Assembly: GCF_947487805.1 (NCBI RefSeq)
Contig: NZ_CANKXW010000005.1
Coordinates: 186,001 to 250,000, forward strand
Length of the DNA: 64,000 nucleotides
Direction of reading: 5' to 3'
DNA from: an uncultured Tateyamaria sp.
GTDB lineage: Bacteria > Pseudomonadota > Alphaproteobacteria > Rhodobacterales > Rhodobacteraceae
Shown piece by piece: positions 7,544 through 13,025 of the stretch. Position 1 is the stretch's first letter. Every line of letters begins with the position of its first letter. The position numbers and the translations under genes were made by a program. A model generated the notes under the pieces. It saw only the letters and a program-made list of their open reading frames with translations, searched no databases and was not told the origin of the DNA.

Positions 7544-8287
7544 TTACTGTTTTATGGGGTCGCCGGATCCCTCTGGCGACACCTGACCGAGCATGAGCGT
7601 CTCAAGCTCCCGCTCAAGTTTCCGCGCCATGGCGTCGGCATAGTCTTCGAACCCCAGCGCGGTTTCGACAAAGCTGTCCGATCCGACGATGACGTTGTGC
7701 TGGAAATAGGCCGACAGGGCCGAAATCTCGCCTTGCCGCAAATCCCCCAGACTGGGCGCATCCGCGCCGATGACCAGCGCGTTGATGGTGATGCCCGTGG
7801 GTGCGATCTCGGGTTTCACATCCACAGGGCGGGGGCCAAGGTTCGACTTGCCATCCCCCGACAGATCCAGCGTCCGCTTCCAGCACTCCGACCGCTCCGC
7901 CAGATGCGCCACGCCTTCGCGCATGGCAAGGCCGAGCGCTGTGCCCGGCGTCGCCTGCCGCCGATCTGTCGCGCGCAACTGGCCGATGATCGCGTCCAGA
8001 ACCGGCGCGCTCGTCACCGATGTCCAGGGCAGGATTACGGTCGGATCCTCCGGCCCGCTCCACTCGTATACCAGCAGATCCACCGGCGTGCCGGGCAGGA
8101 TCAGGATCGCCTGCCGCACCTTGGGATGATCCAGCGCCGCCGCCAACCCGTCCATCTGCAACCGGTATTCCCGCGCATCCACCGACCCCGACACATCCAG
8201 CCCCAGCGCCAGCGCTTGCCGACAGGCCGCCTCCGCCGCCCCGGCCAGACCGCCGCACACCAGCAGAGCCGCGGCCAAACCCTTCAT
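7544..8287 (-). CDS. DUF1194 von Willebrand factor A-like secreted protein (copy 1)
   Basis: Exported protein of 247 residues with a signal peptide (about 1-21). The segment DVSGSVD (31-37) is the metal-ion-dependent adhesion site DxSxS of a VWA fold, with LSGDGKSN further on as the second ligand loop. DUF1194 proteins are widespread in Rhodobacteraceae and functionally uncharacterised. Its start overlaps the stop of the paralogous gene upstream by four bases (ATGA type), so the two are cotranscribed. Confidence 0.82.
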   Translation of the reverse strand: MKGLAAALLVCGGLAGAAEAACRQALALGLDVSGSVDAREYRLQMDGLAAALDHPKVRQAILILPGTPVDLLVYEWSGPEDPTVILPWTSVTSAPVLDAIIGQLRATDRRQATPGTALGLAMREGVAHLAERSECWKRTLDLSGDGKSNLGPRPVDVKPEIAPTGITINALVIGADAPSLGDLRQGEISALSAYFQHNVIVGSDSFVETALGFEDYADAMARKLERELETLMLGQVSPEGSGDPIKQ

Positions 8288-9012
8288 CCCGCGCGCCCCG
8301 GCACGGCAACCGACCCGATCACCGGCGGCGTCAACTCGCGCTCCAGCTTGCGCCGGATCGCCCGCTCGTAATCCTCGAACCCCTGCGCCACTTCCAGAAA
8401 CGCCCCGGGCCCGCGCAGCACTTCTTTCTCGTAAAACTCGATCAGCATCGTCTCGGACGTGAACTCGGCCGCATTCACCACCAGCCCGTTCACCGTCACC
8501 TCGTCGAACGCAAACTCCCGATAGGCCAGCTGCGGGCCAAACCCCTCGTTGTTCTGCCCGTCACCCGCCATGTCTATGGTCTGGCGCAGGCACCGCGGCG
8601 CCCGCGCCAGCATCTCGGCCCCGAACCCCAACGCATAGCCCATGGCGGTGGGAAATTCGCTGTGCGACCGCACGCTGGCCGCCACCGTCTCCGCCGCCAC
8701 CACCAAGGCCGCCGGGCTGTCGATCAACAGCCAGTCCAGTACAACCTCCTGATTGTAGCGCCCCGACCACTCGTAGACGGCCAGCGCCACGGGCATGTCA
8801 TTGGCAAAGAACGCGGCCTGCACCTCGGGCGCGGTCAGCGCCGCCACCAGGCCACCGCGCTGCAACCGATCCTCGGTCGCATCGACCGAGGATGACACGT
8901 CCAGCGCCAAAAGCAGCGCCAACCGGCAGGCAAGGGCCGGCGAGGCCACGCAACAGGCGGCCAAGATGGCCGCCGCCCTTACCAATGGCCGGTGTTTTCC
9001 ATGCTCGCCCAC
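8284..9012 (-). CDS. DUF1194 von Willebrand factor A-like secreted protein (copy 2)
   Basis: Paralogue of the gene downstream, 242 residues from a GTG at 9012 that overlaps the 3' end of gloA by 34 bases. A TTG at 8985 would give a shorter signal peptide and is an alternative start. The signal sequence ends near ALAC (about 26-29), DVSSSVD (38-44) is the MIDAS motif and MAGDGQNNEGFG the second metal loop. Both paralogues share the C-terminal pattern GFEDYxxAxxRKLERELxxx. Roles are unknown; binding of a divalent cation and a protein partner is expected from the fold. Confidence 0.78.
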   Translation of the reverse strand: MGEHGKHRPLVRAAAILAACCVASPALACRLALLLALDVSSSVDATEDRLQRGGLVAALTAPEVQAAFFANDMPVALAVYEWSGRYNQEVVLDWLLIDSPAALVVAAETVAASVRSHSEFPTAMGYALGFGAEMLARAPRCLRQTIDMAGDGQNNEGFGPQLAYREFAFDEVTVNGLVVNAAEFTSETMLIEFYEKEVLRGPGAFLEVAQGFEDYERAIRRKLERELTPPVIGSVAVPGRAG

Positions 9013-9407
9013 GGCTCCTGCGGGGGCAGATCATCGCCCTTCTGCAACAGCTCGATCGAGATGTTGTCAGGCGACCGCACAAAGGCCATGTGCCCGTCGC
9101 GCGGGGGCCGGTTGATCGTCACCCCATTATCCATAAGGTGCTGACATACCTCGTAAATATTGTCGACGCGGTAGGCGAGATGCCCGAAATGGCGGCTGTC
9201 TGACGGCAGCCCGTCATCGCCATCCCAGTTATAGGTCAGCTCGATGGGGCATTCCGGCTGGTCCGGTGGCGCCATGAAGATCAGGGAAAACCGCCCGCCC
9301 TCGCTGTCGTGGCGGCGCGTTTCCTCCAGCCCCAGCAACTTGTAAAAAGCCATCGAGGCATCCAGATCTTTCACCCGCACCATCGTGTGCAAATAGGTCA
9401 ATCCCAT
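8979..9407 (-). CDS. gloA: lactoylglutathione lyase (glyoxalase I)
   Basis: Isomerises the hemithioacetal of methylglyoxal and glutathione to S-lactoylglutathione. The 142-residue protein has the two VOC-fold halves, with probable metal ligands His7 (LHTMVRV), Glu56 (IELTYNW), His76 (HFGHLAYRV) and Glu119 (ISIELL), the order expected for the nickel-type enzyme. The start at 9407 has an AAGGA ribosome site nine bases upstream; a longer reading would lack one. The 3' end overlaps the DUF1194 gene. Confidence 0.92.
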   Translation of the reverse strand: MGLTYLHTMVRVKDLDASMAFYKLLGLEETRRHDSEGGRFSLIFMAPPDQPECPIELTYNWDGDDGLPSDSRHFGHLAYRVDNIYEVCQHLMDNGVTINRPPRDGHMAFVRSPDNISIELLQKGDDLPPQEPWASMENTGHW

Positions 9408-9482: not shown

Positions 9483-10877
9483 TCAAAACTCCGAGCGGAT
9501 GCCCAGACCCACGGTCACCTGTTCCAGATCAAACAGGTTGATGTTGGAATCGGTAAAATTCCCGCGCACCGTCACGGCCGGGTTGAACCCGTAATAGTCG
9601 ATGTCCTTGAACGTCGCCGTCGCATCGGCAAAGAGCGACATGTCCGTCCGGCCCGACGCATCATGGCGCGACACGTCGTAATCGCGCCAGCGCGCGGTCA
9701 GCCCGTATTGCATCTGCACCCCCATGATGTCCGACTTGGGGCGGTAGGACGCGCGCAGGCGCAGCTCGTCATATTCGGCCTCGTCCCGCGGCGACGCCGT
9801 GGTCGCCACCCCGGTCGACAGCGACAGCTGCGCGCCGCTGTCCAGCCGCCGCGACACCCCGGCCTCAATGTTGAAGGTGCGGCGGTCAAACGTGTTCTGG
9901 CCAACCTCTTCGCGCAGTTGTGCCGACATCACCAGCTGCGACCGCGGGGTCAGCGCCACGGTGCGCGACGCGCCGAAAATGGCATAGCTGGCATAGCGGT
10001 CGCCGCCATACCACGACTGGCCCGCGCTGATCTCATAGCGGTGCTCGGCCTTGCCGCCCTGTACCATCTGCAAATGCCGCCAGCCAAATTCCAGCGTGCC
10101 ATAGGCAAAGTCCGACCCGCTGACCCCCGGCGCGTCGCGGCGCGCGCTGTCTGACAGCACAAAGGTGCGGTAACTGGCCTTGGCAAAGATCTCGTCCGCC
10201 GAACTTGCGCTTTCGCGGAACCGGTAGCGGGTGTTGACCGTGGCGCCCAGCTCAAGCCCCGACAGCGCCTGTGACGCGCCCGACAGCTGGTATTCGACCG
10301 GCGTCCCAAAGAGCAGGTCGGTGATCTGGTAATTCAGCCGCGACCGGTCCTTGGAACTGCCATTGTTGACGTTGGATGTGGGCGCGAAGGTAAAGGTAAA
10401 GTCGGTGCGCCAGGGGTTGCGGCTCTGGACATAGCGAAAGTGATCCTTGGCGCGTGCTTCAAGCTCGGGCGTCGGGGCGTGGTGCCCGGCGCGGCGCAGC
10501 CACAATTGCGCCGCCGTGCGCCGCCCGTCCGATGACAGCGCCTGCGCCATGATCAGCGCCGAGGCATAGCGTTCCTCGTCCGTATCCGCCAGCGACCACG
10601 CGGTGCGCGCGGCTTTGCGCGCGGCGGTATAGTCGCCCATGGTACGATGCGCGCGCCCCTGCACCAGCCATGCGGTCAGGTCGGTGGCGTCCCGCTCGGT
10701 CAGCGCCTTGGCATAGCGCAACGCCCGGTCGGGCGCGCCCACCCGCAATTCCTGGGTGGCGGCAATGCGCAGCTGGTCCGGGCCCAGAACCACCTGGGCC
10801 TGTCCCACCGACAGGGGAAGGGCGCAGGCGATCAGGCCAAGGCCCGCAGCGCGCCACGCAGCAAGGGGGGCCAACAT
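9483..10877 (-). CDS. surface lipoprotein assembly modifier (Slam), type XI secretion translocon
   Basis: Outer-membrane protein of 464 residues that, by family, moves lipoproteins across the outer membrane to the cell surface. A signal peptide (about 1-27, ending VGQAQ) is followed by a periplasmic helical region of TPR type (about 35-150; for example GRAHRTMGDYTAARKA), then a beta barrel from about 155 to the C-terminal Phe464. The barrel opens with FTFTFAPTSNVNNGSS, close to the conserved stretch of the DUF560/SlipAM barrel. It starts six bases after the stop of a lipoprotein gene with TbpB-like C-terminal features, the usual Slam-substrate arrangement. A GAGG ribosome site precedes the ATG. 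Confidence 0.83.
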   Translation of the reverse strand: MLAPLAAWRAAGLGLIACALPLSVGQAQVVLGPDQLRIAATQELRVGAPDRALRYAKALTERDATDLTAWLVQGRAHRTMGDYTAARKAARTAWSLADTDEERYASALIMAQALSSDGRRTAAQLWLRRAGHHAPTPELEARAKDHFRYVQSRNPWRTDFTFTFAPTSNVNNGSSKDRSRLNYQITDLLFGTPVEYQLSGASQALSGLELGATVNTRYRFRESASSADEIFAKASYRTFVLSDSARRDAPGVSGSDFAYGTLEFGWRHLQMVQGGKAEHRYEISAGQSWYGGDRYASYAIFGASRTVALTPRSQLVMSAQLREEVGQNTFDRRTFNIEAGVSRRLDSGAQLSLSTGVATTASPRDEAEYDELRLRASYRPKSDIMGVQMQYGLTARWRDYDVSRHDASGRTDMSLFADATATFKDIDYYGFNPAVTVRGNFTDSNINLFDLEQVTVGLGIRSEF

Positions 10878-10883
10878 GGGGCG

Positions 10884-11933
10884 TTACCTCAGCAGGATGA
10901 ACCCGCTGGTGTCGCGCACGGTCACGTTGCTCTGCTCGGACGTGTTCTCGGCCACGATGATGCCCACCAGTTCCTCGGCGTTGTCGCCCGACAGGATGGC
11001 ATAATAGTTGCCCGACTCGTAGGTCTGCACCGCACCGGTATTGTCCACGAACGAACTGGTGATGGATCCCAGGATCTCGCCGTTTTCATCCAGCACACCG
11101 GGTTCGATCACAAAGGTCATCGTGGGGATCTGGCTCAGCGATGCGTTCGAGGTCGCGTTGATGTTGCTGACGACGCTGGCGGTGATGTCATTGCCCGCGA
11201 TATCGAACACCTGCCGGTTGTCGAGGAACCCGCGCACACCGTCGCCGCGCTGGCCGGTGCTGTCGTTAAAGTCGTCAAAGTCGATGGCAATGGCCAGGTC
11301 GGCCGTGCTGTATTCCGACCCGCCGCGCCCGTTAAAGTCGCGCAGCCCCCCGGTCCGGCCATTGTAGATCGCCTGACCCGTGCTCGGCAGGGTGACGTTG
11401 TTGTCGCGCTGGTAAACGAATCCGCCGAACCCGTACTGGCGATACGCCCCCGTCCGCACAACCGCAAACTGCGTGTTGCCCGACGCGCTCACGCCATAGA
11501 TCGCCCGGTGCGACAGCTGGTTGATCGGCGCGCCGGTCAGGCTGTCGGGATATTGCGCATCCGCCTCATAGACCGCATAGGCCCCAAGGCTGGAGACCAG
11601 GGTGCCGCGCGCATATTCGTTGTCCCCGTCAAAGGCGAGGTTGTCGACGGTAAACGTGTCGGCCGTGGAATCATAGCTGACCCCCGTGGCAAATCCGTTC
11701 CCGCTTGTCGCGTCATCGGTGCTGGTCGGTTCGGACCGGAAAATCCCGATCGCCGAAGAGGGCGACGCCGTGCCCGGAGGCACAACCCGGCTGGGGTTCG
11801 TGATCCCGGTGCCGGTGCCGGTGCCGGTTCCCGTACCGGTGCCTGTGTCGGTCGTGGTTTCAACAAACGGGTTGCCACTGCCACACGCGCACAACCCCAG
11901 GGCCATCAGCCCCGGTATTACAAAATGTTTCAT
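10884..11933 (-). CDS. TbpB-like lipoprotein, probable Slam substrate
   Basis: Lipoprotein of 349 residues. The signal peptide ends in LCAC, giving lipidated Cys17. A linker of about seven Thr-Gly repeats (near residues 29-42) separates the anchor from the folded part. The C-terminal region ends in strands with GNYYAILSGDNAEELVGIIV, which matches the pattern of the transferrin-binding-protein B beta-barrel domain (a phenylalanine/tyrosine-rich strand, then G..AEE..G). The ligand is unknown: no TonB receptor or iron gene is adjacent. It is the first gene of an operon with the Slam translocon and has a good sigma-70 promoter upstream. Confidence 0.78.
   Translation of the reverse strand: MKHFVIPGLMALGLCACGSGNPFVETTTDTGTGTGTGTGTGTGITNPSRVVPPGTASPSSAIGIFRSEPTSTDDATSGNGFATGVSYDSTADTFTVDNLAFDGDNEYARGTLVSSLGAYAVYEADAQYPDSLTGAPINQLSHRAIYGVSASGNTQFAVVRTGAYRQYGFGGFVYQRDNNVTLPSTGQAIYNGRTGGLRDFNGRGGSEYSTADLAIAIDFDDFNDSTGQRGDGVRGFLDNRQVFDIAGNDITASVVSNINATSNASLSQIPTMTFVIEPGVLDENGEILGSITSSFVDNTGAVQTYESGNYYAILSGDNAEELVGIIVAENTSEQSNVTVRDTSGFILLR
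11806..11848. repeat. hexanucleotide tandem repeat coding for Thr-Gly units
   Basis: GTGCCG and close variants repeat about seven times on the + strand. Read on the - strand they encode the Thr-Gly linker of the lipoprotein. Because the unit is six bases, gain or loss by slippage would keep the reading frame and change only linker length. Confidence 0.75.
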
Positions 11934-11969
11934 AGATGCCTGCCCGATTACGGTTTTTTCTTTGCGATG

Positions 11970-11998
11970 ATCAGACCCATTCGCCACGCTTCTGTCAA
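11970..11998 (-). promoter_or_regulatory. sigma-70 type promoter of the lipoprotein-Slam operon
   Basis: On the - strand TTGACA (11998-11993) is followed after 17 bases by TCTGAT (11975-11970), a perfect -35 and a four-of-six -10. The predicted transcript would start near 11963 and carry a leader of about 30 bases before the start codon at 11933. Confidence 0.6.
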
Positions 11999-12119: not shown

Positions 12120-13025
12120 ATGCCCCTGAACCCCGAACAGCAGGCCGAAATCGACAGCCTCCGCGCCACAGCGCAGCCGACCTTGCGTGCAACCGTGCCG
12201 GGAATGGAGGCGCATCTCTACAAGGCCCGGCCCGTGCTCGACCACGGCTTTGTCCGCGTCATCGACTATATGGGCGACGACAGCGCCATCTGTCAGGCCG
12301 CCCGCGTGTCCTATGGCAAGGGCACCAAATCCGTCCAGAATGACGAAGGCCTGATCCGCTACCTCATGCGCCACTGGCACTCGACCCCGTTCGAGATGTG
12401 CGAGATCAAACTGCACGTCAAACTGCCCGTCTTTGTCGCCCGCCAGTGGATCCGCCACCGCACCGCCAACGTCAATGAATACTCCGCCCGCTACTCGATC
12501 CTCGACCGCGAATTCTACATCCCCGAACCCGATGCGCTCGCCGCCCAGTCGGTCGTCAACAACCAGGGCCGCGGCGAAGCGCTCCAGGGCGAAGAGGCCC
12601 AACGCGTCCTGCGCTACCTGCGCGACGACGCCATGCGCAGCTATGACCACTACGAAGAGATGATCTCCCAGGACGGCCAACAGGGCCTCGCCCGCGAACT
12701 CGCCCGCATGAACCTGCCCGCCAACATCTACACCCAATGGTACTGGAAAGTGGACCTGCACAACCTCTTCCACTTCCTCCGCCTGCGCGCGGATGCCCAC
12801 GCCCAATACGAAATCCGCGTCTACGCCGACGCGATCTGCGAGATGGTCAAGGACTGGGTCCCCGCCGCCTACGGCGCGTTCGAGGACTACCGGATGGGCG
12901 GCGCCACTTTGTCGGGGACGGCGTTGGAGTGCATGCGGCGGATGTTGAAGGGGGAAGAGGTGACGCAGGAGACTTCAGGTATGAGCAAGGGTGAGTGGCG
13001 GGAGTTTATGAGTATTTTGGAGTGA
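12120..13025 (+). CDS. thyX: FAD-dependent thymidylate synthase ThyX
   Basis: Makes dTMP from dUMP with methylenetetrahydrofolate and NADPH through a bound FAD, replacing ThyA. The 301-residue protein has the diagnostic RHRx7S motif as [11 protein letters not shown] (residues 112-122) and the conserved RARVSYGKG-type segment before it (about 62-68). A ribosome site GGAGAGGA precedes the ATG. It is divergent from the lipoprotein-Slam operon. Its last bases overlap the likely start of the AT-rich gene that follows. Confidence 0.95.

Follow-up and report, generated by a model that had tools for sequence, protein, structure and literature searches.

Predicted type XI secretion unit between thyX and gloA in Rhodobacteraceae and its probable exchange as a two-gene cassette

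A 64,000-nucleotide stretch of the genome of an uncultured Tateyamaria sp. (contig NZ_CANKXW010000005.1, positions 186,001 to 250,000; here termed the window) carries two adjacent genes, encoding a predicted lipoprotein (P0001) and a predicted outer-membrane protein (OMP) of the Slam type (P0002), in the gap between thyX and a gloA-like glyoxalase gene (Table 1). What does this pair form, and does it belong with the genes that surround it? The locus type is already known as the "cluster 3 T11SS" (type XI secretion system; PMC12282271, published 2025), and the parts of that paper drawn on here (Grossman et al. 2025) describe it as a marine locus of Rhodobacteraceae/Roseobacteraceae. Genes for thymidylate synthase, lactoylglutathione lyase and DUF1194 proteins were recorded in the 11 strains inspected there, with a cargo lipoprotein of 282-375 aa in 10 of them, and the large-scale count gave 0.21 cargo per OMP, with TbpBBD found in 8 of 145 loci. 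Three explanations for rare cargo were offered (cargo encoded elsewhere, cargo below the threshold, or none); links to one-carbon metabolism, nickel and aldehydes were discussed, as was DUF1194 as a possible cargo or partner. Our analysis makes it very probable that the pair is a T11SS display unit, co-inherited and exchanged as a cassette between fixed flanks.

Family and fold of the two proteins

By its sequence, the 464-residue P0002 is a member of the SlipAM/DUF560 family of Slam (T11SS) proteins. When the aligned Slam members were compared with the barrel profile SlipAM (PF04575), 39 of 43 matched at E <= 0.1 (best 1.4e-11), while P0002 alone stayed under the cut-off of 22 with 19.3 bits over profile positions 1-276 of 288. 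The initial annotation of the window had named P0002 a Slam translocon, and the DUF560 similarity expected of one is thus present in the family. The NVNNG motif and the C-terminal Phe that it had singled out also held up across the alignment, with N169 and N171 invariant in the 43 rows and F464 present in at least 90%. In the structure model (pLDDT 93), a signal helix is followed by seven helices of the tetratricopeptide repeat (TPR) type and 14 long strands; a TPR domain joined to a 14-strand barrel is also the architecture of Neisseria Slam. Searches of NCBIfam with this protein gave TPR-type matches only, and PDB sequence searches gave matches to the TPR region only (13 in one search; the best 60 of 111 in the other). 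A SlipAM search of the window's own genome revealed no match at E <= 0.001; the 14 control genomes were silent too, and the result was therefore not taken as absence.

Two results weigh against the Slam assignment: the sub-threshold score of P0002 itself, and the PDB structure search with its model, in which the cellulose exporter BcsC was the best match, followed by porins and other barrels, with no Slam named among the 50 matches listed. This top match, together with the shared TPR and barrel, would suit a BcsC-type TPR porin for polysaccharide export, with the lipoprotein as its accessory and not a translocated cargo. However, the SlipAM matches across the family argue against such a porin, as do the partner's fold, which is that of known Slam cargo, and the finding that none of seven tested neighbouring genes matched a polysaccharide family. 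We consider a polysaccharide porin extremely improbable.

The partner lipoprotein has a TbpB/fHbp-type fold, as judged from its structure model. At its N-terminus, Cys17 stands directly after L-C-A and precedes a Thr-Gly repeat, as had been read from the letters at the outset. Cys17 was invariant in a 14-row and a 42-row cargo alignment, each including the window's row, which provides the lipoprotein signal expected of a Slam-dependent cargo. The model (pLDDT 85; signal and linker below 50) has eight strands between residues 186 and 349, seven of them long and the other three residues in length; together with the PDB structure matches, this is consistent with a TbpB/fHbp-like barrel of eight strands. 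At E <= 1e-3 the model matched 35 PDB chains, 34 of them of the TbpB/hemophilin/fHbp/NHBA type; these include a haemophore from Haemophilus and an entry whose whole title is 'Surface Lipoprotein'. The remaining chain was a DUF3598 protein. Pfam searches with the 42 aligned cargos gave matches to FHBP_C for nine (best 1.4e-4) and to TbpB_B_D for eight (best 8.8e-6), both at E <= 0.1. The TbpB-like character proposed in the initial annotation is therefore borne out by the fold of the model and by some cargo sequences. Weighing against it are the weak FHBP_C match of P0001 itself (17.9 bits against a cut-off of 28.1) and the modest TM-scores over the 35 chains (0.20-0.38 by query, 0.21-0.63 by target); identity to the PDB matches was 10-16%. 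No cargo match was found in NCBIfam, and PDB sequence searches with the cargo revealed nothing below E 0.1.

The alignments draw on 46 known pairs, namely three from Sulfitobacter records and those of 43 genomes identified by handle. Of these, 43 are in the Slam alignment (A1); L029 is absent from it, as are L008, which has an in-frame stop, and L046, which is truncated by the end of its contig. The cargo alignment (A3) includes 42; L030 is absent from it, as are L008, L023 and L025, for which the script found no ATG with a lipobox. The lipobox of L008 and L023 is visible by eye, and the L025 cargo lacks a clear one.

Further traits of the cargos were noted in alignment A3. They are nearly free of lysine, with no Lys in the mature part of 15 of 42; mean Lys content was 0.56% for the cargo, 1.4-1.5% for DUF1194, 2.0% for Slam, 2.5% for GloA and 3.0% for ThyX. 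Net charge was acidic in 42 of 42, ranging from -13 to -50. Across otherwise divergent classes, 28 of 42 cargos share a motif after Cys17, often G-D-G-N-P-F (about 11850-11885 in the window), which was sought as C-x(1-5)-[NQESA]P[FLWI], with the wrong Cys taken in a few rows. This motif may serve in sorting, or it may mark a recombination edge that the classes share.

Pairing of Slam and cargo, and the genes beside them

Profile searches covered 121 related genomes, of which 73 (G000-G072) are family genomes. Strong Slam matches (E <= 1e-40) were identified in 43 of the 121 and strong cargo matches (E <= 1e-39) in the same 43. Each of these genomes carries one strong copy of Slam and of cargo, and in all 43 the two genes are adjacent and on the same strand, as expected of a Slam and its cargo. 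Among the family genomes both genes were present in 43 and neither in 30; none had one alone at that strength. G048 (L047, E 6.3e-4) and G076 (E 4.8e-5), with a match to the TPR region only, were counted as outside. The two minus-strand genes six bases apart were found as first described, and since 43 genomes, among them that of the window, share this arrangement, it lies beyond chance. Cargo thus adjoins Slam in 43 genomes and is mostly below the reach of Pfam, which bears on the question of nearby cargo raised in PMC12282271; of the explanations cited from that paper, cargo below the threshold is the one we favour.

Weaker Slam-like proteins, which were left out of these counts, occur elsewhere, for example in G034, G064 and G020. 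In the last of these, the Slam of L061 (1923-5275) is more distant, and upstream of it lie two or three cargo-like matches, all weak; this is perhaps a second type of T11SS. In L008 (G057) the Slam gene has an in-frame TGA; the adjacent cargo match has no internal stop.

To place the pair among its neighbours, we examined the order of the flanking genes. In 35 of the 43 pair genomes, the pair has thyX on one side and gloA on the other, each within 1 kb. They also adjoin without it in 22 of the 30 family genomes that lack the pair, where the thyX-gloA gap is 80-617 bases in 20, 1028 in G030 and 2514 in G034. Published co-occurrence with DUF1194, glyoxalase and ThyX genes (102, 89 and 77 of 145 loci in the parts of PMC12282271 drawn on here), and the presence of the same neighbours in the window, as in a cluster 3 locus, would suit a T11SS that works with these proteins in one-carbon, nickel or aldehyde handling, perhaps with DUF1194 as its cargo. 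However, the neighbours stay together, within 2.6 kb, without the pair. Among the blocks fetched, a DUF1194 gene was present in 25 of 35 with the pair and 16 of 22 without it (Fisher's exact test, P = 1); the blocks of G038, G041 and G047 end at contig ends, and DUF1194 is perhaps undercounted there. No DUF1194 match was found anywhere in five pair genomes (G028, G035, G038, G047 and G065; G038 is given as 91% and G047 as 86% complete), and a ThyX match was missing in 7 of 43 genomes with the pair and 6 of 30 without it. Slam and cargo histories, moreover, hardly track those of the flanks (below). A working link with the neighbours is therefore very unlikely. Because the neighbours persist without the pair, the published co-occurrence can be explained by conserved gene order alone, as can the metabolic links reported in PMC12282271. 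Thus thyX, gloA and DUF1194 are neighbours of the pair and not its partners. The glyoxalase query had one extra residue before its Met.

The initial annotation had also proposed a promoter upstream of the cargo gene. The two hexamers are where it placed them, and all 16 aligned members of the genus have TTGAC between thyX and the cargo gene. The second hexamer, 17 bases further on, is variable, and a scan for consensus promoters did not accept the site (0 found against 0.6 expected by chance).

Table 1. Positions and strands of the pair, its parts and its neighbours in the window
Feature	Positions	Strand	Remarks
Possible promoter TTGACA-17-TCTGAT	11970..11998	-	TTGACA 11993-11998, TCTGAT 11970-11975, 17 bases between
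Predicted cargo lipoprotein gene (P0001)	10884..11933	-	349 aa; ATG 11931-11933
Cys17 codon, presumed lipidation site	11883..11885	-	Lipobox L-C-A-C
Cargo protein parts			Signal peptide and Cys17, Thr-Gly linker, N-terminal beta domain (residues ~54-185), C-terminal barrel region (~186-349)
Slam/SlipAM (T11SS) outer-membrane protein gene (P0002)	9483..10877	-	464 aa; six bases downstream of cargo gene
Slam protein parts			Signal peptide, TPR helices (residues 33-153), 14-strand barrel (156-462), C-terminal Phe
gloA-like glyoxalase gene	8979..9407	-	Conserved right flank, outside the unit
thyX	12120..13025	+	Conserved left flank, divergent, outside the unit
Two DUF1194 genes	8284..9012 and 7544..8287 (7544..9012)	-	Neighbours without association to the pair
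Open reading frame of 262 residues	12995..13783	+	Overlaps thyX end; no Pfam match

Histories of the pair and of its flanks

To compare the history of the pair with that of its flanks, we used the blocks of the 57 of 73 family genomes in which thyX and gloA share a contig; of these, 35 have the pair and 22 lack it. For G057, whose Slam is interrupted, the first 283 residues of that protein were used. Across the 35 complete blocks, the Mantel rho was 0.68 for Slam and cargo and 0.68 for thyX and gloA, compared with 0.14 for Slam and flanks (P = 0.032) and 0.07 for cargo and flanks (P = 0.070). Tree comparisons revealed 15 splits in common between Slam and cargo of a possible 32, two between Slam and flanks, and one between cargo and flanks. 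The genome nearest by Slam was also nearest by flanks in 6 of 35 cases.

The discordance was most evident within the genus. Its 16 members form a single group on the flank tree (support 98) and are scattered on the pair tree, and the approximately unbiased (AU) test rejected them as one group for both Slam (P = 5.8e-5) and cargo (P = 8.1e-7). Within-genus identity was 90.4% for the flanks, 42.6% for Slam and 43.4% for cargo. The members fall into five pair classes (I-V), whose labels were assigned after the identities had been seen, which tells against their weight; these classes require seven changes on the flank tree and four on the Slam and cargo trees. The Slam class equals the cargo class in 16 of 16 members, so no mosaic was seen.

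Pairwise comparisons revealed where the divergence begins and ends. The proteins of G005 and G007 are 98% identical for thyX and 99% for gloA, compared with 26% for Slam and 25% for cargo; their DNA identity is 0.86-0.97 in thyX, drops to 0.30-0.50 across the pair and returns to 0.83-1.00 from gloA onward. A similar pattern was observed for G004 and G012 (thyX 99%, gloA 95%, Slam 27%, cargo 31%), and DNA edges of the same kind were found between G012 and G004 and between G012 and G002. The same-class control, G005 against G001, gave 0.67-0.90 DNA identity across the pair. On the left the edge lies close to the signal peptide, and on the right it lies close to the Slam stop. Past thyX, on its far side, identity fell to background within the 300 bases fetched in every comparison, so that conservation on the left is confined to thyX. 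The 22 genomes in which thyX and gloA adjoin without the pair speak for its loss; in one of them, the genus member G011, a 49-residue C-terminal Slam remnant adjoins gloA (L053:2393-2539, minus strand). A relative of P0002 was detected in 1 of 72,556 plasmid records, at 27% identity, which indicates that plasmids are not the usual route.

Several points weigh against exchange of the pair as one unit. The flanks are not wholly independent of it, given the P value of 0.032 for Slam and flanks and the correlations with gloA (rho 0.20 for Slam and 0.16 for cargo, both P = 0.008). For only 17 of the 35 genomes does the closest Slam come from the same genome as the closest cargo, and linkage alone could keep the pair together and give the agreement between classes. 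The left flank amounts to little more than thyX, and the less closely related G000 and G007, of the window's class, have no sharp edge (0.42-0.82 across the pair). Old polymorphism or hidden paralogy, finally, could cause part of the discordance.

The last of these is the main rival, in which the class differences within the genus reflect ancient polymorphism, or hidden paralogy with differential loss, instead of exchange. Discordant trees and deep classes are what it too predicts. Against it stand the single strong copy per genome in 43 of 43, and flank proteins of 98-99% identity enclosing pairs at background identity with sharp edges. We judge it unlikely, and homologous recombination in the conserved flanks is the simplest reading of the edges. 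Translocon and cargo, which are passed on jointly at a constant site between thyX and gloA, would by such recombination be lost or replaced together; close relatives would thus differ in their surface proteins, and each protein would come with a Slam of its own. Selection for surface diversity, exerted by phage, grazers, host or nutrients, may favour such replacement.

In its broadest form, this leads to a view that we hold with moderate confidence: the thyX-gloA gap of Rhodobacteraceae would be a surface locus fed by recombination, in which translocon and matched cargo are swapped in place between species as a two-gene allele, leaving close relatives with surface proteins that are unrelated. 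A limited literature search found no report of such cassette exchange. If the cassette reading is correct, a surface receptor or antigen would be diversified together with its own export channel; export specificity would travel with the antigen or receptor, in a surface-variation system workable in cells without a TonB receptor. The specificity between cargo and Slam would then be directly testable with natural matched and mismatched pairs.

Predicted role of the cargo and comparison with known systems

We infer surface display from the family of P0002 and the fold of P0001. The lipoprotein would be exported, acylated at Cys17 and probably brought to the outer membrane, where the periplasmic TPR domain and the 14-strand barrel of Slam may pass it through; its N-terminal domain is then predicted to face outward on the flexible Thr-Gly tether. 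It weighs against display that a limited literature search found no report of a displayed cluster 3 cargo, display being predicted here.

TbpB and hemophilin usually serve ligand uptake through a TonB-dependent receptor. The fold matches of the cargo model to both proteins would fit a similar function, in which the cargo passes iron, haem or another ligand to such a receptor. The initial annotation had remarked that no iron receptor stands beside the pair, and this extends to the whole genome: searches of the window's own genome (given as 99.95% complete) revealed 0 Plug and 0 barrel matches for a TonB-dependent receptor, with 3 of 14 control genomes positive in each search. A Plug match was obtained for 24 of the 43 genomes with the pair, leaving 19 without one, and for 14 of the 30 that lack the pair (P = 0.48); several members of the genus also have none. 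These results, in which receptor and pair show no association, indicate that TbpB-like transfer to a receptor is not the general rule. The mature cargo of the window has one His, and a haem role for it was set aside as weak. Uptake of this kind is quite improbable.

With no TonB-dependent receptor detected in its own genome, the most likely role of the cargo is in binding or adhesion, not that of a TbpB-like co-receptor, and this role is most likely under diversifying pressure. Cargos at least 41% identical to that of the window occur in ten genomes (G007, G063, G057, G050, G039, G035, G037, G053, G025 and G069), and in these the N-terminal domain was more conserved than the barrel in nine and equally conserved in one. 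A domain at least as conserved as the barrel suggests that a binding function is kept within the class.

TbpB has two lobes and TbpA as its partner, and hemophilin (HphA) is a T11SS cargo. The window cargo resembles hemophilin in having one lobe and, in the model, a similar fold; unlike hemophilin, it has a lipobox and a single mature His, and no receptor was found in its genome. BcsC shares the TPR-barrel build of the Slam model, whereas the partners of the window Slam differ, and we know of no relation between BcsC and SlipAM. In setting a Slam beside a lipoprotein of TbpB/fHbp fold, the pair is like the Slam-TbpB and other Slam-lipoprotein pairs of Neisseria, Moraxella, Haemophilus and Pasteurella described in the parts of PMC5449769 drawn on here. 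In contrast to those with TbpB, the window cargo is single-lobed, with one barrel in 349 residues and a Thr-Gly tether, is 10-16% identical to the TbpB-type proteins matched in the PDB, and comes from a genome with no TonB-dependent receptor match. The term 'Rhodobacter' does not occur in the main texts of PMC5449769 and PMC8406197, nor 'Roseobacter' in that of PMC5449769, the one text in which it was sought. The closest known system is the cluster 3 locus itself, which, in the parts of PMC12282271 drawn on here, likewise combines a T11SS OMP, a signal peptidase II (SPII) lipoprotein with a C-terminal barrel, a lactoylglutathione lyase, DUF1194 and a flavin-dependent thymidylate synthase. In contrast to that account, in which cargo is rare outside the inspected strains and the neighbours are proposed as partners, cargo adjoined Slam in 43 of 43 genomes, the neighbours were not associated with the pair, and Slam and cargo have seemingly been exchanged as a unit.

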